The translations under genes and the position numbers were made by a program. The notes below the pieces were generated by a model. That model saw only the letters and a list, made by a program, of their open reading frames with translations. It did no database searches and had not been told where the DNA came from. A stretch of 40,655 bases of DNA from Hyphomicrobiales bacterium (GTDB lineage: Bacteria; Pseudomonadota; Alphaproteobacteria; Rhizobiales; JAJFHB01), in contig JAJFHL010000319.1 in the NCBI GenBank assembly GCA_021775615.1, forward strand, positions 1 to 40,655. Reading direction: 5' to 3'. Positions 10,425-27,648 of the stretch are shown here, one piece after another. How positions within the stretch are numbered: position 1 is the stretch's first letter; each line of letters begins with the position of its first letter.

Positions 10425-10430
10425 CGCTCC

Positions 10431-12705: not shown

Positions 12706-12842
12706 AGGCCAGGTTGTTCCGGCGGCCTCGCATGGCTGTGGTCCCGATGGTGAATTCGCGGTAGATAACCGTGCCGTGTCCCCTTGCGGAAATGGCAAAT
12801 TCCCGCCAAAAGAACCGCTCAAACATCGAAGGGACCATCGTT

Positions 12843-13454
12843 GTGACCGCAGCCGTTCAGACAGCCACCGCAGACCACGCCGCATCCTTCATGGATCAGG
12901 CGGCTGAGATCTGTGCCTCCATCGACACGCAAGCGGTTGAGCGCATTGCCGCGGGGCTTGCCGATGTCAGGGCGCGGGGCGGGCGGCTCTTCGTGCTCGG
13001 GGTCGGCGGCAGCGCCGCCAATGCCAGCCACGCGGTGAACGATTTCCGCAAGCTGTGCGATATCGAAACCTATGCCCCGACCGACAACGTGTCGGAACTG
13101 ACCGCGCGCACCAATGACGAGGGCTGGGAGACGGTGTTCGCCGCCTGGCTGCGCACCTCACGGGTCAACGAGAAGGACGCGATCCTGGTGTTTTCCGTCG
13201 GCGGCGGCAATGCGGAGCACAATGTCTCGATGAACCTGGTGTCGGCGCTTAAGGAAGCCAAATCGCGCGATTGCAGCGTCTTCGGCGTGGTTGGGCGCGA
13301 TGGCGGCTATACGGCCGAAGTGGCCGATGCGGTGGTGGTCGTGCCGACGGTGGACGAAAAGCACATCACGCCGCACACCGAAGCGTTTCAGGCAGTGGTG
13401 TGGCACTGCCTCGTCTCGCATCCCGCACTGCAGACCCAGGACACCAAGTGGTAG
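12843..13454 (+). CDS. SIS-domain phosphosugar isomerase, GmhA-like
   Basis: About 203 residues, the usual size of sedoheptulose 7-phosphate isomerases (GmhA), which convert the ketose phosphate to the aldose phosphate. SIS motifs are visible: FVLGVGGSAANASHAVNDF binds the phosphate and corresponds to the GNGGSAADAQH region of GmhA, and FSVGGGNAEHNV is the second phosphate loop. The family's late Glu/His-rich segment appears as KHITPHTEAFQAVVWH. The GTG at 12843 with AAGGGA upstream is preferred; in-frame ATGs at 12792 and 12771 are possible. It is the first gene of the 17-gene operon. The substrate could equally be an octulose phosphate. Confidence 0.87.
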   Translation: MTAAVQTATADHAASFMDQAAEICASIDTQAVERIAAGLADVRARGGRLFVLGVGGSAANASHAVNDFRKLCDIETYAPTDNVSELTARTNDEGWETVFAAWLRTSRVNEKDAILVFSVGGGNAEHNVSMNLVSALKEAKSRDCSVFGVVGRDGGYTAEVADAVVVVPTVDEKHITPHTEAFQAVVWHCLVSHPALQTQDTKW

Positions 13455-13466
13455 CGGCGCGGTTCC

Positions 13467-14039
13467 ATGTCGGAAGCCAGATCACGCGCCGTGTTTCTTG
13501 ACCGCGACGGGGTGATCACCGTTCCCGAATTTCGCGACGGGCGGTCCTTTGCGCCGAAGCGGCTGGAAGATCTCGAATACTATGGCGACGCCGCGCAAAG
13601 CGTTGCCGACCTCAAGGCCCTGGGGTTCCTCGTTATCGTTGCCACCAACCAGCCCGATGTGGGCAAGGGCGAGGTGGCGGAAGCGGTGATCGAGGCCATG
13701 CACGCCGATCTCAGGCGCACCATGCCGGTCGATGATATCGAGGTCTGCTACGACACGCGCGAGACCGCGACCGAGCGGCGCAAGCCCGGCGCCGGCATGC
13801 TGATCGACGCTGCGCGGAATTGGAATATTGACCTTGGGGGCAGTTATGTCGTAGGCGATCGCGCAACCGACATCGAAGCGGGCGAGCGGGCAGGCTGCGT
13901 GACGATCTTCGTCGATCGCGGCTATTCGGCGGAGCTCAGGCCAACCACGCAATCGGCGACAGTGCTGGAGCTTTCCGAAGCGGTGCGCTGGATTGCCGCC
14001 CAGGAACAGATGAAACAGGCTGCCCAGGCACAACAATAG
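13467..14039 (+). CDS. HAD-IIIA phosphatase, GmhB-like (histidinol-phosphatase family)
   Basis: 190 residues. It has all four HAD motifs: FLDRDGVI with nucleophile D12 and acid D14, VIVATNQPDVGKG, the Lys in RRKPGAGML, and YVVGDRATDIEAGERAG. GmhB enzymes remove the terminal phosphate from heptose 1,7-bisphosphate before nucleotide transfer. Most GmhB proteins bind zinc through a Cys/His loop just before motif III; here that region is EVCYDTRETATERRKPG with a single Cys, so the zinc site is absent. Its place between the isomerase and the transaldolase fits dephosphorylation of a sugar bisphosphate made in the same operon. Confidence 0.88.
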   Translation: MSEARSRAVFLDRDGVITVPEFRDGRSFAPKRLEDLEYYGDAAQSVADLKALGFLVIVATNQPDVGKGEVAEAVIEAMHADLRRTMPVDDIEVCYDTRETATERRKPGAGMLIDAARNWNIDLGGSYVVGDRATDIEAGERAGCVTIFVDRGYSAELRPTTQSATVLELSEAVRWIAAQEQMKQAAQAQQ

Positions 14040-14064: not shown

Positions 14065-14781
14065 ATGGCGAGCGTCGACAATCTGAAGATCAAACTCTTC
14101 GCCGATGGGGCCGATCTCGACGGCATCATGGAAATGTATGCCAACCCGATGATCCAGGGCTTCACCACCAACCCGACGCTGATGCGCCAGGTGGGGGTCG
14201 AAGACTACGAGGCCTTCGGCAAGTCGGTTCTCGAAAAGGTGACGGATCGGCCGGTGTCGCTCGAGGTCTTTGCCGACGAGTTTGACGAGATGGAGCGCCA
14301 GGCGCTCAAAATCGCGTCCTGGGGGTCGAACGTCAATGTGAAGATCCCGATCACCAACACCAAGGGTGCGTCGGCGGCAGACCTGATCGAGCGGCTTTCG
14401 GCGCAGGGGGTGATCGTCAATGTCACCGCGATCATGACCCTGGAGCAGGTGCAGGCCGTCGCCGATGCCCTGTCGCCGGAAACGCCGGCGATCGTTTCGG
14501 TGTTTGCCGGGCGTATCGCCGATACGGGCGTCGACCCGATCCCGCATATGGCCAAGGCGCTTGAGATCCTGAAGTCCAGGCCGAAAGCGGAGTTGCTGTG
14601 GGCGAGCCCGCGCGAATTCCTCAACCTGTTCCAGGCCAACGATGTAGGTTGCCACATCATCACGATGACCAACAACCTCCTCGCCAAGCTGGGTGGGACA
14701 GGCAAGGATCTCGATCAGTTTTCACTTGAGACGGTGCAGATGTTCTATCGCGACGCTTCAAGTGCCGGTTACACGCTCTAG
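14065..14781 (+). CDS. Transaldolase-family aldolase (fructose-6-phosphate aldolase type)
   Basis: 238 residues, the size of the small transaldolase/FSA group rather than the 320-residue housekeeping enzyme. Signatures are the early KLFADGADLDGIMEM, GFTTNPTLMRQ, the Schiff-base Lys93 in VNVKIPITN, VTAIMTLEQVQ and VSVFAGRIADTGVDP. The family moves a dihydroxyacetone unit between sugar phosphates. In the lincosamide pathway a transaldolase (LmbR) builds an octulose 8-phosphate from a C5 acceptor. The gene starts at an ATG with GGGGAA upstream, 25 bases after the phosphatase gene. The context points to de novo synthesis of a long-chain ketose phosphate rather than central carbon metabolism. Confidence 0.9.
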   Translation: MASVDNLKIKLFADGADLDGIMEMYANPMIQGFTTNPTLMRQVGVEDYEAFGKSVLEKVTDRPVSLEVFADEFDEMERQALKIASWGSNVNVKIPITNTKGASAADLIERLSAQGVIVNVTAIMTLEQVQAVADALSPETPAIVSVFAGRIADTGVDPIPHMAKALEILKSRPKAELLWASPREFLNLFQANDVGCHIITMTNNLLAKLGGTGKDLDQFSLETVQMFYRDASSAGYTL

Positions 14782-14812: not shown

Positions 14813-15814
14813 ATGACACATATTTGCGTATTGGGCGGCGGCGGTTATGTGGGCTCTCTTCTGTGCCCGCAATTGCTTGGCGACGGCCACAAGGTCACGG
14901 CCTTCGACATCGGCTATTTCGGCGATGGTTTCCTGCCGCACGACAATCCGGACTTCAATTTCATCCAGGGCGATATCCGCAAGGTGGATGACCTCAAACC
15001 CGCCTTCGAGGGCGCCGAGGTGGTCATCAACCTGGCGTGCATTTCCAACGACGCGAGTTTCGTTCTCGACGAGGGCCTCAGCACCACGATCAATCTCGAT
15101 GCCTTCGAGCCCATGGTGGTTGCCGCCAAGGAGGCCGGCGTGAAGCGCTTCGTCTATGCCTCGTCGAGCTCAGTCTATGGGGTTTCCGATCAGCCGGACG
15201 TCAAGGAAGACCATCCGCTGGTGCCGCTGACGCTCTACAACAAATACAAGGGCATGTGCGAGCCGGTGCTGTTCAAGCACCAGTCGGACGATTTCGTCTG
15301 CGTGGTGATCCGCCCCGCCACCCTGTGCGGGTACGCGCCGCGCCAGCGTCTCGATCTTTCGGTCAACATTCTGACCAATCACGCTGTAACCAATGGCAAA
15401 ATCACCGTCTTCGGCGGTTCGCAGCTGCGTCCCAACCTGCATGTCCAGGACATGTGCGACCTCTACCGGTTGCTCGTTGGCATCGAGGCGGAGAAGATCG
15501 CGGGCGAGACCTTCAACTGCGGCTATCAGAACATGTCGATCATGGACATCGCGAAGATCGTCAAGTCGATCGTCGAAGAGGAGATGCCGGAACTCGGCGA
15601 GATCGATATCGTCACCACGCCGAGCGATGACCTGCGCTCCTACCACATCAATTCGGACAAGATACACGAGCACATCGGCTTCAAGCCGTCGCATTCGATC
15701 GAGGATGCGGTGAGGGACCTCTGCAAGGCGTTCAAGGCGGACAAGCTACCCGACAGCATGACCAACGACTGGTACTACAACGTCAAGACGCTGCAGAAAC
15801 TGAACGCTGCGTGA
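14813..15814 (+). CDS. Extended SDR NAD-dependent epimerase/dehydratase
   Basis: 333 residues. A Rossmann glycine motif (VLGGGGYVG, residues 6-14) starts the protein. Further on are ACISNDASF, SSSSVYG and the catalytic YNKYK (Y142, K146), followed by the substrate-side IRPATLCGYAPRQRLD. The enzyme probably oxidises a hydroxyl of a nucleotide sugar transiently and then epimerises or dehydrates. ATG 14813 with AAAGGTGGG upstream is chosen; the frame stays open upstream inside the transaldolase gene. It is followed by a 153-base gap with a palindromic repeat, the only sizeable interruption in the operon. The sugar substrate is not known. Confidence 0.9.
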   Translation: MTHICVLGGGGYVGSLLCPQLLGDGHKVTAFDIGYFGDGFLPHDNPDFNFIQGDIRKVDDLKPAFEGAEVVINLACISNDASFVLDEGLSTTINLDAFEPMVVAAKEAGVKRFVYASSSSVYGVSDQPDVKEDHPLVPLTLYNKYKGMCEPVLFKHQSDDFVCVVIRPATLCGYAPRQRLDLSVNILTNHAVTNGKITVFGGSQLRPNLHVQDMCDLYRLLVGIEAEKIAGETFNCGYQNMSIMDIAKIVKSIVEEEMPELGEIDIVTTPSDDLRSYHINSDKIHEHIGFKPSHSIEDAVRDLCKAFKADKLPDSMTNDWYYNVKTLQKLNAA

Positions 15815-15967: not shown

Positions 15968-16975
15968 ATGCCAGACAAGAAAACCATTCTGATCACCGGT
16001 GGCGCCGGATTTATCGGCAGCCATATGGTCGATATCGCGTTGAATGCCGGCTATGCGGTGCGTGTCGTTGACGATCTCTCCGGCGGGCGCGAGGCCAATC
16101 TGGCGCATCTGGGCGGCAACCGGAACCTCGACTGCGAGTGGACGGACATCCGAAACCTCGCCCCGGATGCCGCCGTTTTCAAGGGCGTCGAACGGGTGGT
16201 TCACTTCGCCGGCATCGGCGATATCGTGCCCTCCATCGAACGGCCGACGGACTACATGTCGGTCAATGTCCAGGGCACGGTGCATGCGCTCGAGGGTGCG
16301 CGTGAGGCGGGGGTTGAGAAGTTCGTCTATGCGGCATCGTCGTCCTGCTACGGCCTGGCCGATGTGCCGACCCGTGAGGACCATCCCATCCAGCCGCAAT
16401 ACCCCTACGCCCTGTCGAAGTACATGGGCGAGCAGGCGGCCTTTCACTGGCATCAGGTCTATGGCTTGCCGGTAAACGCGATCCGGATCTTCAACGCCTA
16501 CGGCACGCGGGTGCGGACCACAGGCGCCTATGGCGCGGTGTTCGGTGTGTTCTTCAAGCAGAAGCTAGAGGGCCAGCCCTACACGGTGGTGGGCGATGGC
16601 ACCCAGAGCCGCGATTTCCTCTACGTGACGGACGTGGCGGCGGCCTTTATGGCGGCGGCGGAAACCGAGTTCACCGGGCAGGTCTGGAACCTCGGCGCCG
16701 GCAATCCGCAGTCGGTCAATCATCTGGTCGATCTGCTCGGCGGCGAGAAAGTCTATGTTCCCAAGCGCCCGGGCGAGCCCGACTGCACCTGGGCCGACAT
16801 CACCGCCATCACCCGCGATCTCGGCTGGGCACCGAAGGTCTCCTTCGAAGTCGGTGTTGCGCTGATGCTGGAAGAGATAGACGCCTGGAAGGATGCGCCC
16901 CTGTGGGATCCGGACTCGATTGCCGAGGCCACCCGGACCTGGTTTGAGCATATGGACAAGGAAACGGCGCAATGA
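15968..16975 (+). CDS. NDP-sugar epimerase/dehydratase (UDP-glucose 4-epimerase-like extended SDR)
   Basis: 335 residues. Features are TGGAGFIGSH for NAD binding, ASSSCYG with the active-site Ser, YALSK with Y147 and K151, RIFNAYGTRV, and GDGTQSRDFLYVTDVA, a pattern shared by GalE-like and UDP-glucuronate 4-epimerase-like enzymes. It most likely epimerises or oxidises a nucleotide-activated sugar. In the lincosamide comparison it could fill the place of the epimerase LmbM. The ATG at 15968 has only a weak ribosome site just after the palindromic repeat. Its stop overlaps the next start by 4 bases (ATGA), so the two are translationally coupled. Confidence 0.92.
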   Translation: MPDKKTILITGGAGFIGSHMVDIALNAGYAVRVVDDLSGGREANLAHLGGNRNLDCEWTDIRNLAPDAAVFKGVERVVHFAGIGDIVPSIERPTDYMSVNVQGTVHALEGAREAGVEKFVYAASSSCYGLADVPTREDHPIQPQYPYALSKYMGEQAAFHWHQVYGLPVNAIRIFNAYGTRVRTTGAYGAVFGVFFKQKLEGQPYTVVGDGTQSRDFLYVTDVAAAFMAAAETEFTGQVWNLGAGNPQSVNHLVDLLGGEKVYVPKRPGEPDCTWADITAITRDLGWAPKVSFEVGVALMLEEIDAWKDAPLWDPDSIAEATRTWFEHMDKETAQ

Positions 16976-18522
16976 TGGTGTCGCTGACGGCGCAGTTCGG
17001 CCACAAGATCAAGACGGTCGAAGAGCTTTGCGAGCTTGTCGGGCCGCGGCCGCGCGAGAAAAAGGTCATCATGTGCCACGGCGTGTTCGACGTGGTGCAT
17101 CCGGGGCACATGCGCCACCTCATCTACGCCAAGAGCAAGGGCGATATCCTGATCGCCAGCCTGACCGCCGACCACCATATCGATAAGGGCGTCTACCGGC
17201 CGCATGTGCCACAGGAGATCCGCGCCGCCAATCTCGCCGCCTTCGAGGTGGTCGATTATGTGCTGATCGACAAGAACGCCAAGCCGCTGGAAAACATTGC
17301 GAAGATCCAGCCCGACTTCTTCGCCAAGGGCTTCGAGTATACCGAAGGCGGCATGAGCCCGAAGACGGCGGAAGAGAGCGACGTGCTGGAAAGCTACGGC
17401 GGCGAGATCGTCTTCACGCCGGGCGATGTGGTCTATTCCTCGTCCAGTCTGATCGACATGGCGCCGCCGGAACTGCAGCTTCAAAAGCTGCTCTCGGTGA
17501 TGGAGCGCGACAATATCGGCTTTGGCGATCTGCGCGCCACGCTTAGCGCCATGGCCGGCAAGAAGGTGCATGTGGTGGGCGACACCATTGTCGACAGCCT
17601 CACCCAATGCGCCATGATCGGCGGCCAGACCAAGACGCCCACCATGAGCGTGCTCTACCAGGACAAGCTCGACTTCATCGGTGGAGCAGGCATCGTTGCA
17701 AAACACCTGCGCGCCGCCGGCGCCGAAGTGGTGTTCTCAACGGTTCTGGGCGACGACCCGCTCAAGGATTTCGTCTTGAAGGGGCTTGAGGATTTCGGTG
17801 TCGAGGTGCGGCCCATTATCGACGAGTTCCGGCCCACCACCAACAAGAACGCCATCGTTGTCGGCGGTTACCGGCTTTTGAAGGTGGACACGCTGGACAA
17901 TTCGTCGATCTCGGATTCGATCGTCGAAACGCTGACCGAAGGTATCGGGCAGGTCGAGGCGGACGCCGTCGTGTTCAGCGATTTCCGGCACGGCATGTTC
18001 AACCGGCGCACCATTCCCGCGCTCGTCGATGCAATCCCGGACGGTATGTTCCGGGTGGCGGACAGCCAGGTTGCGAGCCGATGGGGCAATATTACCGAAT
18101 TCAAGGGCTTCGACCTGATCACCCCCAATGAGCGCGAGGCGCGGTTTGCCCTGGCGGATCAGGACTCCGGTGTGCGGCCGCTTGCCTCAAGACTTTACGA
18201 TGCGGCGGAATGCAAGACCCTGATCCTCAAGCTCGGGGAACGCGGCGTTCTCGCCTGCCGCAACTCCGACCATGAAGCGCTCGACAGCTTCTTCATCGTC
18301 GACAGTTTTGTCGACCGACTGGTGGATGCGGTGGGCGCCGGCGACGCGCTCTTGGCCTATTCGACGCTGTCATCTCTGGTCACCGACTCGCCCATTCAGG
18401 CCACCATCCTCGGCTCCATCGCGGCGGCGACCGAGTGCGAACTCGACGGCAACATCCCCGTGGCGGCGGAAGACATTCTGGCGAAGATCGACAAGGTCGA
18501 AAGGCAGGCGAATTACTCGTGA
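16972..18522 (+). CDS. Bifunctional nucleotidyltransferase-kinase, HldE-like with swapped domain order
   Basis: 516 residues. Residues about 30-165 form a cytidylyltransferase-fold domain with CHGVFDVVHPGHM (HxGH at 43-46), the KG...RP segment and VYSSSSLID. Residues about 195-516 form a PfkB-family sugar kinase with GDTIVDSL, FIGGAGIVAKHLRAAGAE, and DAVGAGD containing the catalytic base D458. In HldE (RfaE) the kinase comes first and the nucleotidyltransferase second, so the order is reversed here. HldE phosphorylates heptose 7-phosphate at C1 and later forms ADP-heptose. The matching role here is anomeric phosphorylation and ADP- or CDP-activation of the operon's sugar. The gene overlaps both neighbours by 4 bases. 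Confidence 0.9.
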   Translation: MMVSLTAQFGHKIKTVEELCELVGPRPREKKVIMCHGVFDVVHPGHMRHLIYAKSKGDILIASLTADHHIDKGVYRPHVPQEIRAANLAAFEVVDYVLIDKNAKPLENIAKIQPDFFAKGFEYTEGGMSPKTAEESDVLESYGGEIVFTPGDVVYSSSSLIDMAPPELQLQKLLSVMERDNIGFGDLRATLSAMAGKKVHVVGDTIVDSLTQCAMIGGQTKTPTMSVLYQDKLDFIGGAGIVAKHLRAAGAEVVFSTVLGDDPLKDFVLKGLEDFGVEVRPIIDEFRPTTNKNAIVVGGYRLLKVDTLDNSSISDSIVETLTEGIGQVEADAVVFSDFRHGMFNRRTIPALVDAIPDGMFRVADSQVASRWGNITEFKGFDLITPNEREARFALADQDSGVRPLASRLYDAAECKTLILKLGERGVLACRNSDHEALDSFFIVDSFVDRLVDAVGAGDALLAYSTLSSLVTDSPIQATILGSIAAATECELDGNIPVAAEDILAKIDKVERQANYS

Positions 18523-19460
18523 GCGGACTGCGCGTCATTGTCGTCGGTCTCGGCGTACAGGGCCATAAACGCCGCAAGTTCGCCGGCGCCGACTTTGTCG
18601 CTTCAGTCGATCCGGTCAACGAGGAGGCCGATTACAAATCGATCGAGGATGTGCCGCAGGACGCCTATGACGCGGCGCTGTGCTGCATTCCCGATGCGCC
18701 GAAGATCGCGCTTTTGAACGACCTGATCGGCATCGGCAAGCATGTGCTGGTCGAAAAACCTCTCTGGGCGGAAGACGACCGCGAGATAGAAGCGCTCGAG
18801 GCGCTTGCCCGGGACCGCGGCGTGGTCTGCTACACCGCCTACAACCACCGTTTCGAACCGCATTATATGCGGATGCGTGACCTCATCGCATCGGGCGAGT
18901 TGGGGCGGGTGTATCGTTGCCGCATGTTCTACGGCAACGGCACGGCGCGCCTGGTGCGCGATTCCGCCTGGCGCGATCACGGATCGGGCGTGCTGCACGA
19001 TCTCGGGTCGCACTTGCTCGATACGGCGGCGTTCTGGTTCGGCAGGCCGGCCGGGGACTTCATGGTCTATGCAAGCAACTGCTTCGAGAACCGTTCGCCC
19101 GACCATGTGGTGATCGGCTCGGAGGTGGGGGACATCAAGATCGAACTGGAGATGACGCTTCTGTCGTGGCGTAACCATTTCACCTGCGATCTGTTTGCCG
19201 AAAACGGATCGGCGCATATCTCCTCGCTTTGCAAATGGGGCCCGACCACCTTCACCCGGCGCACCCGCGTGCTGCCGAGCGGCCGGCCGACGGAAGACAA
19301 TGAGACCCTGGAACAGGACGATCCGACCTGGGAGGCGGAATACGCCCATTTCAAATCCTTGTGCCTGAACGGGGCCGAAACGGATCTTTCCGGCGACGTC
19401 TGGCTCAATGCAACCCTGCGCGGCCTGGGCGAGACGGCCGTCTCGATGGCGGCGCGATGA
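18519..19460 (+). CDS. Gfo/Idh/MocA-family NAD(P)-dependent oxidoreductase
   Basis: 313 residues. The Rossmann start RVIVVGLGVQGHKRRKF is followed by the conserved EKP triad (E79-K80-P81 in LVEKPLW), whose Lys is catalytic in the family, and by GSGVLHDLGSHLLD with the conserved His. The GTG start at 18519 overlaps the preceding stop in GTGA and has GGCAGG upstream. Such enzymes oxidise or reduce a secondary alcohol of sugars or NDP-sugars, often making 3-keto intermediates for an aminotransferase. The lincosamide octose pathway has a member of this family (LmbZ) acting together with a UDP-glucose-dehydrogenase-like protein (LmbL); here too that protein is encoded next door. Confidence 0.9.
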   Translation: MSGLRVIVVGLGVQGHKRRKFAGADFVASVDPVNEEADYKSIEDVPQDAYDAALCCIPDAPKIALLNDLIGIGKHVLVEKPLWAEDDREIEALEALARDRGVVCYTAYNHRFEPHYMRMRDLIASGELGRVYRCRMFYGNGTARLVRDSAWRDHGSGVLHDLGSHLLDTAAFWFGRPAGDFMVYASNCFENRSPDHVVIGSEVGDIKIELEMTLLSWRNHFTCDLFAENGSAHISSLCKWGPTTFTRRTRVLPSGRPTEDNETLEQDDPTWEAEYAHFKSLCLNGAETDLSGDVWLNATLRGLGETAVSMAAR

Positions 19461-20737
19461 CGGTCACCGTCGGATTTGTGGGGATGACCCATCTCGGCCT
19501 GGTGTCGGCGACCGGAGCCTGTTCGAAAGGCTTCAGGACCGTTTGTTTCGATGCCGATACGGATCTGATTGCGGCCCTCGGCGCTGGGCAATTGCCGGTG
19601 CTGGAGCCTGGCCTTGACGAGATGCTGGCGGCGAATGGCGAGCGGCAGGTCTTCACTTCGGAAGCCGGTGACCTGAATGCCTGTGACGTGGTCTATATCG
19701 CGCCCGATGTTCCGACGGACGATGCGGGATCTTCTGATCTCAGCGGCATAGAGGCCCTGATCGGCGAAGTGGATCCGCATCTGGGAAACGATGCGATCCT
19801 GATCATCCTTTGCCAGGTGCCGCCAGGATTCACCCGGTCCCTCGATTTTGCGTCCGACCGGCTTTTCTATCAGGTCGAGACCCTGATTTTCGGCCGGGCC
19901 GTCGAGCGGGCGGTCGAGCCGGAGCGGTTCATTGTCGGTTGCGCTGAACCGGCGGCTCCCCTGCCGGACGCCTATGGCCGTGTGCTCGATGCCTTCGGAT
20001 GCCCGATCCTGCCGATGCGCTACGAAAGCGCCGAGCTTGCCAAGATCTCCATCAACATGTGCCTGGTCGCCTCCATTGGCGTGGCCAACACCATGGCGGA
20101 GGTTTGCGAGAATGTCGGCGCCGACTGGCAGGAAATCGTACCGGCGCTCAAGCTCGACCGGCGGATCGGTCCATACTCCTATCTCGCGCCGGGTCTCGGT
20201 ATTGCCGGCGGCAATCTTGAACGGGATCTGGCGACCGTATTGCGGCTGGCGGAGCGCCACGACACCGATGGCGGGATCGTCTCCGCCTGGCTTGGCAACA
20301 GCCGCCATCGGCGCGACTGGGCGGCCCGGGTGCTGCGGGACGCCGTTCTGGCAAAATACGACAATCCCCTGATCGCGGTGTGGGGGCTGGCCTATAAGGA
20401 AAACACCCATTCGGTGAAGAACTCGCCGTCGCTTGCGACGCTCGCGCAGTTCCCGGACGTCCGCTTCGCGGTGCATGACCCGGCCGTTGCGGCCGATGCC
20501 GCGGGCCATGCGGGCGTGGAAGGCGCCGCGTCCCCGCTGAGCGCGCTTGAGGGCGCCGAGGCGCTGGCAATCCTCACCCCGTGGCCGGAATATCGCGAAG
20601 TGGCGCCGGTAGACATCGCCAGGGCGCTCGCCGGCACCATCATTGTCGATCCCTATCGGGTGCTCGACCCGCGGGCCTGCGTCACCGCGGGCCTTGCCTA
20701 TCACACGCTCGGCATGGCACCACTTGCCGCCGATTAG
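19457..20737 (+). CDS. UDP-glucose/GDP-mannose dehydrogenase-family protein lacking the catalytic Cys
   Basis: 426 residues in the three-part UDP-glucose dehydrogenase layout. The N-terminal Rossmann domain has GFVGMTHLGLVSATG, the central helix has ESAELAKISINMCL with the conserved K196 and N200, and the C-terminal domain has GLAYKENTHSVKNSPSL. The active-site loop, normally GGSCxPKD with the nucleophilic Cys, reads GIAGGNLERD, placing Asn253 where Cys should be. Four-electron oxidation to a uronic acid needs that Cys, so this enzyme is unlikely to make an acid; two-electron oxidation of an alcohol remains possible. ATG 19457 overlaps the previous stop. The nearest precedent I recall is LmbL of lincomycin synthesis. 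Confidence 0.87.
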   Translation: MTVTVGFVGMTHLGLVSATGACSKGFRTVCFDADTDLIAALGAGQLPVLEPGLDEMLAANGERQVFTSEAGDLNACDVVYIAPDVPTDDAGSSDLSGIEALIGEVDPHLGNDAILIILCQVPPGFTRSLDFASDRLFYQVETLIFGRAVERAVEPERFIVGCAEPAAPLPDAYGRVLDAFGCPILPMRYESAELAKISINMCLVASIGVANTMAEVCENVGADWQEIVPALKLDRRIGPYSYLAPGLGIAGGNLERDLATVLRLAERHDTDGGIVSAWLGNSRHRRDWAARVLRDAVLAKYDNPLIAVWGLAYKENTHSVKNSPSLATLAQFPDVRFAVHDPAVAADAAGHAGVEGAASPLSALEGAEALAILTPWPEYREVAPVDIARALAGTIIVDPYRVLDPRACVTAGLAYHTLGMAPLAAD

Positions 20738-20748
20738 CCTGGAGTGTC

Positions 20749-21648
20749 ATGCCCCCCGTGTTGCACCATCTGAATTCCTCGCCACAAGCCCCTGAACGGG
20801 TTGTTGTTTTGGGAGCCGCCGGTTTCGTCGGGGCGGCCATTGCGCGACGCCTGTCCGACAAGGGCGCCGCCGTTTCCGGCCTGACCCGCCGCGATGTCGA
20901 TTTGCAGGCGGACGGAGCGGGTGACGCTCTGGCGGCTCTGCTTTTGCACGGCGACGCGCTGGTGTGCGTTTCCGCCATCGCGCCGGTGAAGAACCTGGCC
21001 ATGCTGGCTGACAATCTCGCCATCATCGACACCATTGCGCAGGCGCTGCGCAAACAGCCGGTCGCCCATGTCGTGAATATCGGGTCCGACGCGGTCTACG
21101 CGGACAGCGCCGGACCGCTCACCGAATCTTCCTGCGCGGAACCTGGAAGCCTGCACGGCATCATGCACCTGACCCGTGAGCTGGTCTTGACGGAGGCTGC
21201 GGGTGAGGCGCCATTCGCCACCCTGCGCCCGACGCTCATCTACGGAGCGGATGATCCGCATAACGGCTACGGGCCGAACCGGTTCCGCAGACTTGCCGCC
21301 GATGGCGAGGACATCGTGCTGTTCGGCAATGGTGAAGAGCGGCGCGACCATGTCTGGGTCGAGGACGTCGCTGAACTCGCCGCCCGCATGGTTCTGAACC
21401 GGAGCGAAGGGGCGCTCAACGCGGCCACCGGAACGGTTGTGTCCTTCCACGACTGCGCCGAACTTGTCTCCTCCCATTTTGACCGTGATGTCGCAATCAA
21501 GAGCACGCCGCGTTCAGGACCCATGCCGCATAACGGCTACCGGCCGTTCGATCCGGCGGCAACGCTTGGCGCATTTCCCGATTTTGCCTACACACAACCG
21601 GCGGATGGATTTGCCAAGGTGCATGCGGCGACGGCGGGAGAGGGCTGA
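20749..21648 (+). CDS. NAD-dependent epimerase/dehydratase-like protein with altered active site
   Basis: 299 residues from the ATG at 20749, which has GGAG about 5 bases upstream. The Rossmann motif VVVLGAAGFVGAAIARRL and the segment VVNIGSDAVYADS are clear. At the place of the usual YxxxK the sequence is LHGIMHLTRE, so H136 and H140 replace Tyr and Lys. RPTLIYGADDPHNGYGPNRF and RRDHVWVEDVAE in the C-terminal half are normal for the extended SDR family. The protein may have lost redox activity, or use a different acid/base pair or serve as a binding or reductase subunit. Its stop overlaps the next start (TGATG). Confidence 0.83.
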   Translation: MPPVLHHLNSSPQAPERVVVLGAAGFVGAAIARRLSDKGAAVSGLTRRDVDLQADGAGDALAALLLHGDALVCVSAIAPVKNLAMLADNLAIIDTIAQALRKQPVAHVVNIGSDAVYADSAGPLTESSCAEPGSLHGIMHLTRELVLTEAAGEAPFATLRPTLIYGADDPHNGYGPNRFRRLAADGEDIVLFGNGEERRDHVWVEDVAELAARMVLNRSEGALNAATGTVVSFHDCAELVSSHFDRDVAIKSTPRSGPMPHNGYRPFDPAATLGAFPDFAYTQPADGFAKVHAATAGEG

Positions 21649-22307
21649 TGGGCGGCGAAGTCGACCTCCTCAAAGCGCTGCCCAAGACCAAGCGCAACCT
21701 CGAGGCACGCCAGGAGGCGAAAGACCCGGAAGTCATCCGGCTGTCCCGCGAGTATGGTGAGATGTATTTCGACGGGCCGCGGGACTATGGCTATGGCGGC
21801 TACAGATATGATGGCCGCTGGGTGCCGGTCGCCCATGACATCATTGCCCATTTCGGGCTCAAGCCAGGCGACCGGGTGCTCGATGTCGGCTGCGCCAAGG
21901 GGTTCCTGGTCAAGGATCTGGTCGATGCGCTGCCCGGGCTTGAGGTCTACGGCCTCGACGTTTCGGAATATGCGCTGATGCACTGCCACGAAGATGTGGT
22001 GGGCCGGCTGCACCTCGGAAGCGCAGATACGCTGCCGTTTCCCGACGACAGTTTTGATTGTGTTATTTCGCTCGATTGCGTACACAATCTGCCGCGTGAG
22101 CGGGCCAAGACGGCATTGAGGGAAATCCAGCGCCTGTCCGGCGGGAAAGCCTTCGTCAAGGTCGACAGCTATCACACACGCGAACAAAAAGAGATATTCG
22201 AGAGCTGGGTACTGACGGCGTTTTTCCATGATTTCCCAGAGGGTTGGCTGAAGCTCTTCGACGAAGCCGGCTACACCGGGGACTACGCATGGACAATCAT
22301 TTCCTGA
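21648..22307 (+). CDS. SAM-dependent methyltransferase (class I)
   Basis: 219 residues. The SAM-binding core shows VLDVGCAKGFLVKDL (motif I), VYGLDVSEYAL (acidic residue of motif II), SADTLPFPDDSFDCVISL and VHNLPRE. An N-terminal region rich in Tyr and Gly (GPRDYGYGGYRYDGRW) precedes the core and may bind substrate. The gene starts one base into the previous stop. Given the operon, O-, N- or C-methylation of the nucleotide sugar or its precursor is the likely job; the acceptor is unknown. Confidence 0.87.
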   Translation: MGGEVDLLKALPKTKRNLEARQEAKDPEVIRLSREYGEMYFDGPRDYGYGGYRYDGRWVPVAHDIIAHFGLKPGDRVLDVGCAKGFLVKDLVDALPGLEVYGLDVSEYALMHCHEDVVGRLHLGSADTLPFPDDSFDCVISLDCVHNLPRERAKTALREIQRLSGGKAFVKVDSYHTREQKEIFESWVLTAFFHDFPEGWLKLFDEAGYTGDYAWTIIS

Positions 22308-22362: not shown

Positions 22363-23355
22363 ATGAGCAAGACCTATGCAGTTCTGGGCGGCGGCGGATC
22401 CTTCGGCATCCACGCAGCGCTCTATCTTCTCGATAACGCCAATCCCAACAAGGTCATCGGCATCGGACGCAATCCGCTGCGGCCGGAACCGTTCTCCCTC
22501 AACATCGAAGACCGTGACGGTTATGAGTATCACGCCCGCCACGTGACCCATGAGATCGACCTGCTGTTGGAACTGCTCGACCGTGAGAAGCCGGATGTCA
22601 TTGTTAACTTCGCCGCGCAGGGCGAGGGGGCGGTATCGTGGAAGCACTCCTGGCGTTTCTTCGAAACCAATTCCATGGCCCTGGCCCGGCTGACCGAAGA
22701 ACTCATGCAGCGCGACTGGCTGGAGCACTTCATCCAGATCGGTACGTCGGAAATGTACGGATCGGTCAGCCATGCGGTGACCGAAGACGAGCCGATCAAG
22801 CCGACCAGCCCCTATGCCGCCTCCAAGGTGGCCTATGACATGTATCTCATGTCGGTTTCGAACTTCCTGAAGTTCCCGATGACGATCATCCGGCCGAGCA
22901 ATTGCTATTGCCCGGGACAGCTTCTGCACCGGGTCATTCCCAAAGCGGTCTGGGCCGGCCTCACCGGCGCAAAGCTGCCTCTGCACGGTGGCGGCAAGGC
23001 GGAAAAGTCTTATATGCACGCCCGTGATCTCGGCCGCGCCATCCATCTTTTGGCGGAGCGCGGGCCCAAGGGCGAAATCTTCAACGCCGGACCGGTCAAC
23101 CCGACTTCGATACGCGAAGTGGTCGAGCGCTGCGCCGGCGCCCTCGACATTCCGTTCGAACAGCTGTGCGAGGTGACGGAAGACCGGCTGGGCCAGGATT
23201 CGCGCTACTGGCTCGATTCAAGCGCCATCAAAGAAGCTGTCGGCTGGAAGCCGGAGATCGGCTGGGACGAGGGCCTCGCCGAAATGGTCGAGTGGGGCAG
23301 GCGCTATCTCGACGATATTCGCGACTGGCCGACGGATTATACGTTGCGGGCGTGA
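22363..23355 (+). CDS. NDP-sugar 4,6-dehydratase/epimerase-like extended SDR
   Basis: 330 residues. Motifs are VLGGGGSFGIHAALYLL at the N-terminus, VIVNFAAQGEGAVSW, QIGTSEMYGSV, and SPYAASKVAYD with Y151 and K155, then IIRPSNCYCPGQ and KSYMHARDLGRAIH. The TSEMYG and SPYAASK patterns are those of dTDP-glucose 4,6-dehydratase and GDP-mannose 4,6-dehydratase relatives, which create the 4-keto-6-deoxy sugars that DegT aminotransferases use. Whether it dehydrates or epimerises cannot be fixed by eye. It is the fourth SDR gene in the operon and precedes the split transketolase by 40 bases. Confidence 0.9.
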   Translation: MSKTYAVLGGGGSFGIHAALYLLDNANPNKVIGIGRNPLRPEPFSLNIEDRDGYEYHARHVTHEIDLLLELLDREKPDVIVNFAAQGEGAVSWKHSWRFFETNSMALARLTEELMQRDWLEHFIQIGTSEMYGSVSHAVTEDEPIKPTSPYAASKVAYDMYLMSVSNFLKFPMTIIRPSNCYCPGQLLHRVIPKAVWAGLTGAKLPLHGGGKAEKSYMHARDLGRAIHLLAERGPKGEIFNAGPVNPTSIREVVERCAGALDIPFEQLCEVTEDRLGQDSRYWLDSSAIKEAVGWKPEIGWDEGLAEMVEWGRRYLDDIRDWPTDYTLRA

Positions 23356-23395: not shown

Positions 23396-24256
23396 ATGAA
23401 ACATCAGGATCTATCGCCAGGCGATGCGCACGAAGCGCGGCGCAACGCATTTGACGCGGCCGCCGCGCGGGCGCGGTGCATGCGCTACCGGAGGCGCATT
23501 CTCGACATCTCCCAGCAGGTGACCGCGCTGCATGTGGCGCCGGCCTTTTCGTGCACCGAGATCGTCGATCTCATCTACAACGAGCTGATGCGCTGGCCCG
23601 AGGCGGGCCAGTCGCCGGACGTGTTCTTGATGTCCAAGGGACACGGCTGCATGGTCCAGTATGTCATCCTAGAGGAAATGGGCATTCTGGAGCGATCCGA
23701 CCTCGACGACTACTGCAAGCCGGGCGGTCGGCTTGGGGCCCATCCAGACTTCGGCGTGCCCGGTATCGCCGCATCGACCGGGTCGCTCGGACACGGCATG
23801 GGCATCGCCACCGGCATGGCCTATGCAGAGCGGGCCCAGGCGCGCGACGGTCTGGTCTATCTGGTGCTGAGCGATGGCGAATGCCAGGAAGGCTCGACCT
23901 GGGAAGGCGCCATGATGGCGGCGAACCTGAAGCTGGAAAACCTGATCGCCTTTGTCGACCTGAACGACTTTTCCGGTCTCGAGCGGATGAGTGAGGGGCA
24001 TCCGGCGTTTCACCCGCTTCTGGAGAAGTTCCAGGCATTCGGCTGGGAAGGGGTCAAGGTCAACGGCCATGACGCCGATGCCATTGAAGCGGCAGTTCGT
24101 GCGCGGTCCGGCGGCAAGCCCTTCGTGGTGGTGTCGGAGACCGTCAAGGGCAAGGGCGTTTCCTACATGGAACACGTGCCGATCTGGCACTACCGGGCGC
24201 CGAGCCCGGAAGAGTACATTCAGGCCTGCGAAGAGCTTGTGGAGATCAGCGGATGA
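23396..24256 (+). CDS. Transketolase, N-terminal subunit
   Basis: 286 residues corresponding to the thiamine-diphosphate-binding half of transketolase. Visible parts are the substrate-loop MSKGHGCMVQYVILEEMG, GRLGAHPDFGVPGIAASTGSL (abbreviated), GHGMGIATGMAYAERAQ, and the cofactor-metal motif LSDGECQEGSTWEGAM with the later LNDFSG. The C-terminal half is encoded by the next gene, overlapping by 4 bases. Two-gene transketolases are frequent in archaea, actinobacteria and special biosynthetic loci. The pair would transfer a two-carbon glycolaldehyde unit between sugar phosphates, supplying or extending the operon's ketose phosphate, or adding a two-carbon branch. Confidence 0.92.
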   Translation: MKHQDLSPGDAHEARRNAFDAAAARARCMRYRRRILDISQQVTALHVAPAFSCTEIVDLIYNELMRWPEAGQSPDVFLMSKGHGCMVQYVILEEMGILERSDLDDYCKPGGRLGAHPDFGVPGIAASTGSLGHGMGIATGMAYAERAQARDGLVYLVLSDGECQEGSTWEGAMMAANLKLENLIAFVDLNDFSGLERMSEGHPAFHPLLEKFQAFGWEGVKVNGHDADAIEAAVRARSGGKPFVVVSETVKGKGVSYMEHVPIWHYRAPSPEEYIQACEELVEISG

Positions 24257-25173
24257 GAAACAAGTTCGCAGATGTGTTCTATGAGCTCGGTGCGTCTGAC
24301 CCGAAACTGTGCATCGTCGTCGCCGACATCTCGCCGGCCGGCTCGATCGCCAAGTTCCGCACCGAGTTTCCCGACCGTTTTATCAACACCGGTGTCGCCG
24401 AGCAGATCATGATCGGCATGTGCGCCGGGATGGCGCAGCGCGGCCTCAGGCCGTTCGCCTATACCATCGCCACTTTCACGCTCTATCGGCCGTTCGAGTT
24501 TGTCCGCGACGACCTGTGCTACCAGAACCTTCCCGTGACCATCGTCGGCATTGGCGGCGGCGTCACCTATTCCACACTGGGTGGGACCCACCACGCCCAG
24601 GAAGACATCGCCATTGCAACCGCGATCCCGAACATGTCGGTGATCGCGCCCTGCGACCCGGCCGAAGCTGAGGCGGCGACCCGCTGGTGCGCAACGCAGA
24701 CAAGGGGCCCGGTCTACCTGCGCCTCGGCAAGGCGGGAGAACCGGTGCTCACGGACGGCGCGCCCGAACCTTGGGAATTTGGCAAGCTGCGGCATATTTC
24801 GCGGGGCAGCGACGTCTGCGTTCTGACCTATGGACCGGTGGCCAAGATGGCGGCGGATGTGGCCGAGCGCTACCGGGCACAGGGTAAGAGCGTGTCACTG
24901 GTCTGTGCCCATACGCTTAAACCTCTTGACGAGAGCGGCATCGTGGAGGTGCTGAAGTCGCACGATCAGGTGGTCGTGGTGGAGGAAACCAGCCCCTATG
25001 CGAGCCTTGGATCTCGGGTGAAGCAACTGGCCTGGGACGCCCAGGCGACCTGCCGCATCGATACGTTCTGTCTGCAGGACGAGTTCATACATCACTATGG
25101 CGACCACGCGGAGTTGCTGGCGGCGCACGGGCTTGAGCTCGATGCCATTTCAGCCAAGCTGAACCTGATGTGA
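24253..25173 (+). CDS. Transketolase, C-terminal subunit
   Basis: 306 residues matching the pyrimidine-binding and C-terminal domains of transketolase. FINTGVAEQIMIGMCAG contains the conserved Glu50 that activates the thiamine ring. YSTLGGTHHAQEDIA and SVIAPCDPAEAEAATRW follow, and the C-terminal domain contains VCVLTYGPVAKMA and VVVEETSPYASLG. It forms the active enzyme with the product of the preceding gene, whose stop it overlaps. 1-deoxyxylulose-5-phosphate synthase and the E1-beta subunits of 2-oxo acid dehydrogenases share this fold, but the partner subunit is of the transketolase type. Confidence 0.92.
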   Translation: MRNKFADVFYELGASDPKLCIVVADISPAGSIAKFRTEFPDRFINTGVAEQIMIGMCAGMAQRGLRPFAYTIATFTLYRPFEFVRDDLCYQNLPVTIVGIGGGVTYSTLGGTHHAQEDIAIATAIPNMSVIAPCDPAEAEAATRWCATQTRGPVYLRLGKAGEPVLTDGAPEPWEFGKLRHISRGSDVCVLTYGPVAKMAADVAERYRAQGKSVSLVCAHTLKPLDESGIVEVLKSHDQVVVVEETSPYASLGSRVKQLAWDAQATCRIDTFCLQDEFIHHYGDHAELLAAHGLELDAISAKLNLM

Positions 25174-25191: not shown

Positions 25192-26322
25192 ATGCTCTCC
25201 AAGACGCATTCCGGCGAGACCACCGTCAGGTACCGTAATCTTGCTGTCGAAGACGAGGCGTTCCGCTCCCGACTGGTGAGTGTGTTCGAACGCGTGCTCT
25301 CCCATGGCCAGCTGATCATGGGACCGGAAGTCGAAGAATTCGAACGCACGGTCGCGGAATACTGCGGGACCCGCTACAGCGTCGGCGTGGCGAGCGGGAC
25401 CAGCGCCATCTATCTTGCATTGCGGGCCCTGGGCGTGGGGCCAGGCGACGAGGTCATTACAACGCCCATGTCATGGGTTGCGACGCTCAACGGCATCAAT
25501 GCGACCGGGGCGATGCCGGTCTTTGCCGATGTGCGCGGCGACCTGAACATCGATCCCGCCGCGGTCGAAGCCGCCATCACGCCGAAGACCCGGGCGATCA
25601 TGCCGGTTCACTACACCGGTCGGCTCTGCGACATGGAGGCGATCTCGCGCATCGCGCGCGAGCACAATCTCCTGGTTGTCGAAGATGCCGCCCAGGCGAT
25701 GGGCGCGGAGCTGCCCGATGGCCGCAGGGCAGGGGGCTTCGGCGATGCCGGCGCCTTCAGTCTCAACCCGATGAAGGTGCTGTTCGGTTTCGGTGAAGCG
25801 GGCGCTGTGACGACCAGTGATGCGGGTGTGGTCAAGACACTGGAAGCACTGCGGTATCTCGGCACGGAAAACAAGGAAGTCTGCGTCGATCCTGAACTCA
25901 ATCACAAGATCGACGCGCTGCAGGCGGCGCTTTTGTGCGAGAGCTTCAAGGAGCTTGCCAGGGTGCTGGTGGCCCGCAAGAATGTTGCCCGCAGCTATTC
26001 TCAAGGGCTCCGTGACATTGTCGACTGTCCCGAGGTGCCGGCGGAGGGCGACTACAGCGCGATCTTCTTCGAATACACCATCCAGGCGGATGACCGGGAC
26101 AGTCTCCAGGCCTATCTGGCCGAACGGGGCGTTGAAACCAAGGTGAGGCATCCCATCTTGATGCCGGACCAGCCGGCCTATGCCCATCTCGAGCGGCCCC
26201 ATATTCCGCAGGCGCGACGGCTGGTCGAGCGGATCTTGTGCCTACCGTGCCACGAAAAACTGAGTGATGACGAGCTGGAGTTCGTCATCGGTTCCGTGAA
26301 AGATTTCTACGCCGCGGCGTAG
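25192..26322 (+). CDS. DegT/DnrJ/EryC1/StrS-family PLP aminotransferase
   Basis: 376 residues, full length. ASGTSAIYLALRALG binds the cofactor phosphate, VVEDAAQAMGAEL has the Asp that contacts the pyridine nitrogen, and FSLNPMKVLFGFGEAG carries the Schiff-base Lys195. Enzymes of this family convert a keto group on an NDP-sugar to an amine with glutamate or glutamine as donor. The start ATG has AAAGGGA about 6 bases upstream. In this operon it would act after one of the dehydrogenases, as LmbS does in the lincosamide route, and its amine could then be N-formylated by the enzyme encoded at 27649. Confidence 0.94.
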   Translation: MLSKTHSGETTVRYRNLAVEDEAFRSRLVSVFERVLSHGQLIMGPEVEEFERTVAEYCGTRYSVGVASGTSAIYLALRALGVGPGDEVITTPMSWVATLNGINATGAMPVFADVRGDLNIDPAAVEAAITPKTRAIMPVHYTGRLCDMEAISRIAREHNLLVVEDAAQAMGAELPDGRRAGGFGDAGAFSLNPMKVLFGFGEAGAVTTSDAGVVKTLEALRYLGTENKEVCVDPELNHKIDALQAALLCESFKELARVLVARKNVARSYSQGLRDIVDCPEVPAEGDYSAIFFEYTIQADDRDSLQAYLAERGVETKVRHPILMPDQPAYAHLERPHIPQARRLVERILCLPCHEKLSDDELEFVIGSVKDFYAAA

Positions 26323-26337
26323 ACGCAAAGACCGGCG

Positions 26338-26883
26338 ATGGACAAGGCATTCGATCCTGAAACCGTACGCGCGCTGGGGCTGACCGAGAGGGAACCCGGT
26401 GTGCTGGTGTGTTCGGGAGACTGCGCTTATGCCGACCGGACACTCGTTGAAGGACTGCAGCGCTATGCTGCCGGCAGACCAAATCAGCGGGGCCGCGTGC
26501 TGTTCCACGGCGATGAGAATGACGGACTGCACGAGATGCTGATTGCGGCCCGAGGCATGACCGTCTGGCCGCCGCACATCAACGAGGGCGGCGCCAAGTC
26601 GTGGACGGTATTGGACGGCGCCATTGCATATGTGCAATACACTTCTCCCGGCGACATCGTTGATCTCAGGCGTCTTGCCTGCGATGAAGCGGATGTGCCG
26701 TCCTTCTTTCGTTTGTCGGCGGAACGATGGCACACGATCGTGCCCCTGTCCGAGATGCCGGTCTATCTGGAGACGAAGCGCGGGCCGCACCGGAGGACCC
26801 GGTTTGCGGAGTGGGGACCGCAATCTCAAGACGACCCGGGTGGGCAACAGTTGCTGGAAGCTGTTCGGTCGCTCGGGCCCTGA
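26338..26883 (+). CDS. WbuC-like cupin-fold metalloprotein
   Basis: 181 residues. Family resemblance to WbuC, a cupin found in O-antigen loci, rests on several matches in order: RVLFHGDENDGLHEMLIA, WPPHINEGGAKSWTVLDG where the cupin metal His sits, FFRLSAERWHTIVPL, VYLETKRGPHRRT and FAEWGP. The N-terminal portion (about 45 residues, with LVCSGDCAYADRTLVEGL) resembles the short N-terminal extension of WbuC proteins. The biochemical role of WbuC is not established as far as I know, but its usual neighbours are NDP-sugar enzymes, as here. It might be an isomerase or epimerase of an activated sugar. Confidence 0.68.
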   Translation: MDKAFDPETVRALGLTEREPGVLVCSGDCAYADRTLVEGLQRYAAGRPNQRGRVLFHGDENDGLHEMLIAARGMTVWPPHINEGGAKSWTVLDGAIAYVQYTSPGDIVDLRRLACDEADVPSFFRLSAERWHTIVPLSEMPVYLETKRGPHRRTRFAEWGPQSQDDPGGQQLLEAVRSLGP

Positions 26884-26952
26884 GACCAGCGTACAGATCA
26901 CCAAGGCCCCCGGGACGCTTGAGCGCAGGGGGCAGAGCAGGAAAGAGCGAGA

Positions 26953-27636
26953 ATGGAAACCTCCGATAATCTTGAAATTCAGCTGAAGGTGCGTGACGCG
27001 CTTTCGGAGCAGCCACGCATTCTGCTAGGGCCGCGGGCCAGTCATGAACTTGAAAAAGACCCCAAGCATCTGTTGTTTGTGCTGTCGCGCTACAAGTTCG
27101 TCGCCAAGATGTTTCCCAACCGCGGGCGTTTGCTGGAAGTCGGTGCCGGTGACGGGCTGGGAACCAGCCTGGTGGCGCAGTCGGGCAACGAGATTGTCGG
27201 CATCGATCTTGAAGCGCTTGGGCTCGATGAATCGGCCGAAACCAGCTGGACCCGGAAATACATCCGCTTCGAGACCCATGACATGGTGGCCGGCCCCTAT
27301 GTGCCGAACGGACAACGCTTCGACGGGGCCTATTCGCTGGATGTGATCGAGCATATCCACCCGGATCAGGAGCGCACGTTTCTTGAGAACATCGTCGCGT
27401 CGATCGACGATTGTGCGCCGCTCATCATCGGGACGCCCAACGAGACCGCCAAGCCCTATGCCTCCAAGGAGGCGCTTGAGCAGCACATCAACTGGAAGAC
27501 CTATGACAGTCTCTATGAGTCCTGTGCGGAGTTCTATTCCAACGTCTTCATGTTCGGCATGAACGATGAGGTGGTGCACACGGGCTATGCGCCCATGTGC
27601 CATTACCTCTATGCCGTCTGCACGCAACCAAAGTAG
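26953..27636 (+). CDS. SAM-dependent methyltransferase (class I)
   Basis: 227 residues. Motif I is LLEVGAGDGLGTSLVA, followed by IVGIDLEALGLDE, FDGAYSLDVIEHIHPDQE and LIIGTPNETAKPYAS, typical of class I small-molecule methyltransferases of the UbiG/Methyltransf_23 type. The late part is aromatic-rich (YDSLYESCAEFYSNVFMFGM). It starts at an ATG with an AAGAGCGAG ribosome site, 69 bases after the cupin gene, the largest gap in this part of the operon, which holds nothing I can identify. It is the second methyltransferase of the operon; the acceptor is unknown. Confidence 0.87.
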   Translation: METSDNLEIQLKVRDALSEQPRILLGPRASHELEKDPKHLLFVLSRYKFVAKMFPNRGRLLEVGAGDGLGTSLVAQSGNEIVGIDLEALGLDESAETSWTRKYIRFETHDMVAGPYVPNGQRFDGAYSLDVIEHIHPDQERTFLENIVASIDDCAPLIIGTPNETAKPYASKEALEQHINWKTYDSLYESCAEFYSNVFMFGMNDEVVHTGYAPMCHYLYAVCTQPK

Positions 27637-27648
27637 GCGCGGGCGAGC

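Follow-up and report, generated by a model that had tools for sequence, protein, structure and literature searches.

A UDP-glucose-dehydrogenase-like protein with asparagine at the catalytic-cysteine position marks an octose-type gene cassette widespread in Gram-negative bacteria

What is left for an enzyme of the UDP-glucose dehydrogenase (UGD) superfamily to do when its catalytic cysteine has been lost? The question is raised by a 40,655-nucleotide contig of a Hyphomicrobiales bacterium (JAJFHL010000319.1; the assembly accession number in GenBank: GCA_021775615.1), the whole of which is called the window here. In it, an intact open reading frame (ORF) at 19457-20737 on the forward strand encodes a 426-residue, Cys-less member of the superfamily; this protein and its family are named UGDN. 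An initial annotation had proposed that the enzyme stops after one oxidation and may make a ketone on a secondary carbon for an aminotransferase. We found that the Cys-less UGD is a diagnostic member of a widespread octose-type cassette, and its residues and gene neighbours suggest that it probably makes the keto form, not the acid form, of a long-chain sugar.

UGDN has the fold of the superfamily. All three UDPG_MGDP_dh Pfam domains match it above their cut-offs, and TIGR03026 (nucleotide sugar dehydrogenase), which matches 47 of 47 family members at E ≤ 1e-20, gives the window protein 189.0 bits against a cut-off of 189.8, that is, 0.8 bits under it; the remaining models matching family members are those of UDP-glucose or UDP-ManNAc dehydrogenases. 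Because general UGD models match these proteins though the known Cys chemistry is lacking, members of the family are likely mistaken for UDP-glucose dehydrogenases. The AlphaFold2 model (pLDDT 94.5, pTM 0.88) matches UGD structures end to end, best 3gg2 (Z 42.3 and rmsd 2.1 over 406 aligned residues, with 27% identity) and also 4a7p (Z 41.8), the identity to these two being 27-28%, and the matches below the superfamily are other dehydrogenases at Z about 17. The catalytic loop reads GIAGGNLERD; when the protein is aligned by phmmer with 4a7p, 3gg2 and 3vtf, N253 falls on the Cys of their GGSCFPKD loop, so that the annotated position of the Asn is borne out by solved UGDs.

When the residues were mapped by motif to the numbering of the Streptococcus pyogenes enzyme, those replaced were found to include Cys260 (by N253), Tyr10 (by H12), Thr118 (by Q120) and Lys263 (by R256), and those retained to include K196 (Lys204), N200 (Asn208), D257 (Asp264) and E141 (Glu141). 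K196 and N200 are thus kept as annotated, but the Rossmann motif is only partly preserved: in GXGXXG the second Gly is Thr11 and the Tyr after it is His12. According to passages in PMC4794789, 18 residues are invariant across 229 NDP-sugar dehydrogenases, the catalytic Cys260 among them; Lys204 and Asn208 serve the first oxidation, Cys260 is the nucleophile on the aldehyde, Asp264 is the base that activates a water molecule, with which Thr118 is in contact too, and Tyr10 is assigned to thioester hydrolysis. Ten of the 17 invariant residues besides Cys260 are kept in 16 family rows (G7, G12, E141, E201, K204, N208, N219, G258, D264 and K320). The changed ones are G9, T83, T118 and P140, as well as G257 in 15 of 16 rows, while the equivalent of S117 is Cys in the window (C119) and two more rows and Ser in 13 of 16, and that of N287 is ambiguous by one alignment column. 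Of the 18 positions invariant in the superfamily, the family has changes at six and the window protein at seven. By this mapping, the lost residues Cys260 and Tyr10 belong to the second half-reaction and the first-oxidation residues Lys204, Asn208 and Asp264 are kept, which supports the proposed loss of the aldehyde-to-acid step. Compared with the UGDs of PDB entries 3gg2, 4a7p, 2q3e and 1dlj, UGDN has the fold and the first-oxidation Lys, Asn, Asp and Glu in common, whereas Cys260, Tyr10 and Thr118 are missing and the gene neighbours differ.

The replacement is fixed in the family. When the genome of the window was searched together with those of 60 relatives, 61 in all, six orthologues were found at 62-100% identity, the window's included; the next matches, from 34% downwards, are ordinary UGDs. 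A pattern-based and not exhaustive scan of a collection of species genomes gave 48 loci at 42-78% identity. The titles of their records name alpha-, beta- and delta-proteobacteria, Chlamydiae and other groups, and many of these records are metagenome-assembled genomes (MAGs). In the 49 rows formed by the window and these loci, Asn occupies the catalytic-Cys site in all 48 that cover it, L084 ending before the site. The same is true for 28 of 28 matches in a sample of 385 Alphaproteobacteria genomes (E ≤ 1e-100), a set that includes the window and was not de-duplicated against the 48 loci, whereas Cys stands there in all 30 covering rows of 31 other superfamily members. The family alignment used below has 47 rows, the window and 46 loci, since L070 (one in-frame stop) and L084 (truncated gene) were left out; L037 was left out of the loop alignments. 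The loop itself may vary around the Asn, as in GGSNLIRD (two genomes) and GGGNIGRD, found among L121, L122 and L144. The stop in the L070 gene, which spans 10001-11266, may be a sequencing error or a sign of decay.

The gene neighbourhood is conserved as well. For the locus counts, window proteins were used as queries on the 48 loci, and because 21 of these are shorter than 20 kb the counts are lower bounds. A Gfo/Idh/MocA oxidoreductase (GFO) accompanies UGDN in 48 of 48 loci and a fusion of a nucleotidyltransferase and a PfkB kinase (NT-PfkB) in 46, both being present in all 27 loci that reach 20 kb. The genes for the transaldolase, the isomerase, NT-PfkB and the phosphatase are present, among others, in L081 (Skermanella aerolata) and L058 (Thalassobaculum fulvum). 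As controls we took the neighbourhoods of 20 of 32 ordinary-UGD matches from the same order as the window. At 40% identity or more neither GFO (0/20) nor NT-PfkB (0/20) was found there, one transaldolase being the sole cassette match; at any identity (E ≤ 1e-8), a gene like that of the epimerase/dehydratase SDR2 was found in five of the 20, and matches to GFO (24%), the SDR protein SDR4, a thiamine-diphosphate (TPP) enzyme and the transaldolase (TAL, 47%) in one each. In the 385 Alphaproteobacteria genomes, UGDN was found in 28 and NT-PfkB (E ≤ 1e-90) also in 28, with 27 genomes having both and 29 having either (Fisher p 3e-39, relatedness not corrected); of the exceptions, G1082 has UGDN only and G1081 only a partial NT-PfkB match. 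The annotated partnership with the Gfo/Idh/MocA protein is therefore very strong. It is different with the aminotransferase: the window has a DegT/DnrJ/EryC1 protein (25192-26322 on the forward strand, PF01041), but it is a local neighbour outside the conserved cassette, and a DegT homologue lies near only 8 of the 48 family members, or 3 when 40% identity is required, and in 5 of the 27 loci that reach 20 kb. An aminotransferase as the user of the ketone is thus not supported, and such coupling was dismissed as a general trait.

Among characterised enzymes, the nearest Cys-less UGD that we found is LmbL of lincomycin biosynthesis. With the window transaldolase, and not UGDN, as query, a search of 392 genomes from one Streptomyces-like genus gave matches in four at E ≤ 1e-12, each of them in a cluster with SIS, HAD, SDR, Gfo/Idh/MocA, DegT and UGD-like proteins. 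In one of the clusters the homologues follow the gene order published for lmb (PMC12945683), and it is taken to be that of lincomycin. LmbL, with which the initial annotation suggested a comparison, also has no Cys at the catalytic site; the UGDs of all four clusters have Thr there in place of the Asn of UGDN. The residues H12, D84, Q120 and R256 are common to 20 of 20 rows (16 of the family and four LmbL-type) and invariant in all 47 rows of the family alignment; in other superfamily members, H12, D84 and Q120 occur in 0 of 31 rows and R256 in 0 of the 30 that cover it. LmbL and CcbL (of lincomycin and celesticetin, from Streptomyces) and UGDN are therefore alike in superfamily, in the missing Cys, in His, Gln and Arg for Tyr10, Thr118 and Lys263, and in Asp84, and the LmbL cluster and the UGDN cassette both have a transaldolase, SIS isomerase, HAD phosphatase, SDR and Gfo/Idh/MocA protein, the counterparts of LmbR, N, K, M and Z. 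On the other side, LmbL is about 27% identical to the window protein, its cluster has an aminotransferase (LmbS) and no match to the NT-PfkB fusion, while a DegT gene is present in the window and in only a minority of the 48 UGDN loci; and LmbL belongs to an antibiotic cluster of an actinomycete, whereas UGDN lies in Gram-negative loci.

Trees with only the loop columns dropped join the family and LmbL with supports of 99/94 (16 of 49 family rows) and 98/99 (four long or short rows of 50 left out), and a smaller-set tree (30 of 51 rows), in which columns 9-14, 84, 119-120 and 250-257 were dropped, joins them at 82/81. The branches are long, however, the approximately unbiased (AU) tests do not reject other placements (p 0.19-0.21), and the best BLAST score of LmbL is 158 bits to ordinary UGDs against 132 bits to the UGDN family. 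LmbL is therefore not accepted here as a proven sister. A 2020 paper on LmbM, LmbL, CcbZ and CcbS reportedly gives their steps as 6-epimerisation, 6,8-dehydration, 4-epimerisation and 6-transamination. These four enzymes jointly turn GDP-octose into GDP-lincosamide (PMC12945683), and octose 8-phosphate is built by LmbR and LmbN (a title cited in PMC4351081). With LmbL in this set, the annotated idea of a simple ketone appears incomplete, and UGDN may go beyond it. The annotated long-chain-sugar setting is supported by the Cys-less LmbL together with the transaldolase, isomerase, kinase, phosphatase and nucleotidyltransferase of the cassette.

Considering these residues and neighbours, we think it fairly likely that UGDN is a two-electron, C6-ketone-forming and possibly dehydrating enzyme acting on a nucleotide-octose from its own cassette, where the octose as substrate, C6 as site and the ketone as product are inferred. 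The transaldolase would give an octulose phosphate, which the SIS isomerase, the PfkB kinase, the HAD phosphatase and the nucleotidyltransferase would convert to an NDP-octose. UGDN would then oxidise C6 of the NDP-octose, which carries a secondary alcohol where ordinary UGD substrates have a primary one, to a 6-ketone, and this might drive the loss of the 8-OH (6,8-dehydration) or alternatively go to the Gfo/Idh/MocA partner for reduction or epimerisation. Since a ketone cannot proceed to the acid through the thiohemiacetal and thioester steps, the loss of Cys260 and Tyr10 is to be expected. The two-electron idea of the initial annotation is in this way well supported though not shown. Several points weigh against the proposal. 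The octose is deduced from LmbR-, LmbN- and LmbK-type homologues at only 30-41% identity, and a heptose is possible, as the SIS and NT-PfkB proteins also resemble ADP-heptose enzymes. The clade of the family and LmbL is that of the best trees yet unproven, given the AU and BLAST results above, and LmbL, one of a four-enzyme set, is listed as a dehydrogenase or predicted C8 dehydrogenase (PMC4351081, PMC12945683). Furthermore, Cys182 is invariant and might lie near the active site.

Two variants of the proposed C6 ketone chemistry can be distinguished. It is possible, though this is put forward tentatively, that UGDN is an LmbL-type internal dehydratase, in which oxidation at C6 is followed by elimination of the 8-OH and return of the hydride at C8, so that an 8-deoxy-6-keto octose arises with no net NADH. 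The likeness to LmbL with the common H12, D84, Q120 and R256 speaks for it, and the invariant E141 could act as acid/base; but the dehydration may belong to any of LmbM, LmbL, CcbZ and CcbS, and Asn against the LmbL-type Thr, as well as V140 against P140, leave room for a different chemistry. Somewhat more doubtful is a simple two-electron dehydrogenase, which would release a 6-keto sugar and NADH, with the Gfo/Idh/MocA partner reducing the other face, giving an epimerisation without net redox change. The absence of the Cys and Tyr of the second oxidation agrees with this, and so does the pairing of the two genes, which co-occur in all loci and overlap by 4 bp in the window, where the ATG of UGDN lies on the stop of GFO (ATGA). 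However, several SDRs of the cassette could already epimerise, and LmbZ is said to belong to a pathway with a dehydration.

Outside the ketone-forming proposal, an improbable alternative is a four-electron dehydrogenase that forms a uronic acid by another nucleophile (Cys182) or by direct hydration of the aldehyde. The fold and the first-oxidation residues are intact, and Cys182, which lies just before the strand 184-188 and 14 residues before K196, is kept by all 47 members in the alignment. On the other hand, Tyr10, Thr118 and Cys260, which serve the water and thioester steps in the account of PMC4794789, are all changed; Cys182 is outside the GGxC loop, and its column has no Cys in the four LmbL-type proteins, L095 having one a column later. 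No other Cys was found in the catalytic loop, although Cys182 remains elsewhere in the sequence. UGDN might also serve the cassette as a regulator or scaffold without catalysis, for which the changes at superfamily-invariant positions could be cited, but this is very improbable: the Lys, Asn, Asp, Glu and diphosphate Lys do not vary among alpha-, beta- and delta-proteobacterial and chlamydial records, unlike in a decaying active site.

The family thus marks a cassette that resembles the lincomycin octose pathway and is found in about 7% of the Alphaproteobacteria sample as well as in records titled beta-proteobacteria, delta-proteobacteria and Chlamydiae. Among the matches listed for the open-access PMC literature, mostly judged from the listings and with subscription papers outside the scope, there was no description of the cassette or of a Gram-negative Cys-less UGD family. 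Nucleotide-sugar dehydratases fall into three fold groups in a 2022 review (PMC8987622), none of which is UGD-like, and a ketone-former or dehydratase with the UGD fold, if true, would widen this scheme.

If the ketone is not generally made for an aminotransferase, which enzyme could consume it? The loci hold 316 ORFs outside the cassette; among the 92 of these that were scanned with Pfam, which come from 16 of the 48 loci, the commonest family was E1-dehydrogenase alpha (10 members), followed by the pyrimidine and C-terminal domains of transketolase (7). The window has a split transketolase on its forward strand, with an N-terminal subunit TKTn at 23396-24256 (PF00456) and a C-terminal subunit TKTc at 24253-25173 (PF02779 and PF02780). 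When transketolase was counted at 40% identity or more and E1 subunits at E ≤ 1e-20, 25 of the 27 full-length loci had a two-subunit thiamine-diphosphate enzyme of one of the two types, and never both types (Fisher p 6e-6, relatedness not corrected): a split transketolase with both subunits, as in the window, in 11, and an enzyme like pyruvate dehydrogenase E1 (PDH-E1) in 14, of which 13 have both subunits, while in L067 a fragment of the alpha subunit lies where the locus ends. Neither type is present in L045 and L068. In all 48 loci, the split transketolase is found in 20, PDH-E1-like subunits in 18, a third thiamine-diphosphate type alone in one and none in nine, seven of which are short. 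In a few loci, for example L077, the pair is 8-10 kb off or on the other strand. Neither the split transketolase nor a PDH-E1-like pair was found in the 20 ordinary-UGD controls. The thiamine-diphosphate pair, rather than the aminotransferase, is therefore the recurrent candidate consumer of the ketone.

Thiamine-diphosphate enzymes beside sugar genes have precedents. The pairs of avilamycin (AviB1/AviB2) and paulomycin (Pau11/Pau12) are reportedly of the PDH-E1 type. In passages of PMC4753412, a role in attaching the C-4 acetyl branch of the antibiotics is proposed for AviB1/AviB2 and Pau11/Pau12, and the flavoprotein YerE attaches one for yersiniose; at the UGDN loci acceptor and donor may differ. 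It is rather unlikely, but worth stating, that the product of the cassette is a C10 branched sugar not yet described, found on Gram-negative surfaces, in which the split transketolase or the PDH-E1-like pair adds a two-carbon branch to UGDN's ketone on the NDP-octose; the addition onto this ketone is a guess. If it were true, the Cys-less UGDs would form a class of their own among nucleotide-sugar enzymes, making ketones in bacteria far outside the antibiotic producers.

The other cassette genes of the window all lie on the forward strand. The first is a GmhA-like SIS sugar-phosphate isomerase (12771-13454, PF13580; 33 of 48 loci), which matches phosphoheptose isomerases in PDB and is the counterpart of the isomerase domain of LmbN (32% identity by blastp to the lmb-type cluster L092). 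It is followed by a HAD sugar-bisphosphate phosphatase (13467-14039; LmbK counterpart, 41% identity; 34 of 48 loci), TAL of the small transaldolase or fructose-6-phosphate-aldolase type (14065-14781, PF00923; LmbR counterpart, 30% identity; 33 of 48 loci), and two NAD-dependent epimerases/dehydratases, SDR1 (14813-15814, with the ATG at 14813 as chosen start; PF01370, scanned from 14693; 40 of 48 loci) and SDR2 (15968-16975; LmbM counterpart, 25-31% identity; 43 of 48 loci). NT-PfkB (16972-18522, PF01467 and PF00294) has HldE-like domains in reversed order; the rfaE domain models match it below their cut-offs, and its NT domain resembles both ADP-heptose and cytidylyl enzymes. GFO (18519-19460, with the start in a GTGA overlap; PF22725, PF02894 and PF01408, scanned from 18435) is the LmbZ counterpart (28% identity). 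Downstream of UGDN are SDR3, a predicted ketoreductase/epimerase (20749-21648; PF01370, scanned from 20740; 43 of 48 loci), MT1, a methyltransferase-fold protein of the extended cassette (21648-22307; 40 of 48 loci), and SDR4, a dTDP-glucose-4,6-dehydratase-like SDR of its variable part (22363-23355; 15 of 48 loci). The 4-bp ATGA or GTGA overlaps at 16972, 18519, 19457 and 24253, that is, SDR2/NT-PfkB, NT-PfkB/GFO, GFO/UGDN and TKTn/TKTc, suggest coupled translation. The ADP-heptose pathway, with the enzymes GmhA, HldE, GmhB and HldD, is like the cassette in its logic of isomerase, kinase with nucleotidyltransferase, phosphatase and SDR; unlike it, the cassette has the reversed order of fusion domains and, in addition, a transaldolase, a Gfo/Idh/MocA protein and a Cys-less UGD.

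Two further regions of the window flank these genes. An acetolactate-synthase-like TPP enzyme is encoded at 10431-12326 on the reverse strand, with homologues near UGDN in 7 of 48 loci, and three proteins are encoded downstream of DegT at 26338-28407 on the forward strand: one that no Pfam family matches (homologues in 1 of 48 loci), a methyltransferase (6 of 48) and a formyltransferase (0 of 48). Because they are rare near UGDN, these four proteins are not counted in the conserved cassette. At L052, L053, L058, L063-L065 and L045, a second UGD-superfamily protein, which we take to be WbpA/TviB-like, lies about 3-4 kb downstream (14.5-16.8 kb in the locus). The Cys is kept (GGHCIGVD) in the four of them that were aligned (L045, L053, L058 and L064).

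The family was also looked for on other carriers. Of 244 viral stretches that matched the pattern, none was a relative. The 260 plasmid records at E ≤ 1e-20 are all below 60% identity, and no clear family member is among the 40 matches listed, whose identity of 28.7-31.8% is in the range of ordinary UGDs. The enzyme was found in 0 of 295 genomes of other Actinomycetes at 1e-72; the record L046, titled an Actinomycetota MAG, holds the cassette at 45-72% identity and is probably a contaminant contig. A link to bradyrhizose was considered, since the product might be C10 and Bradyrhizobium genomes carry UGDN, and is not claimed. In the genus Bradyrhizobium UGDN is present in 7 of 242 genomes, two of the seven having been known already. 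One primer site of the gdh gene of strain ORS285, as given in a passage of PMC4743980, was found in 0 of 9 genomes, and both primer sites are absent, with up to 5 mismatches allowed, from the retrieved Bradyrhizobium stretches. A photosynthesis marker is present in 2 of the 7 UGDN carriers and in 2 of 14 non-carriers. In two genomes of the genus that bear this marker (G1247 and G1198; loci L191 and L192), the genes for SIS, TAL, SDR1, SDR2, NT-PfkB, GFO, UGDN, MT1, TKTn and TKTc are consecutive.

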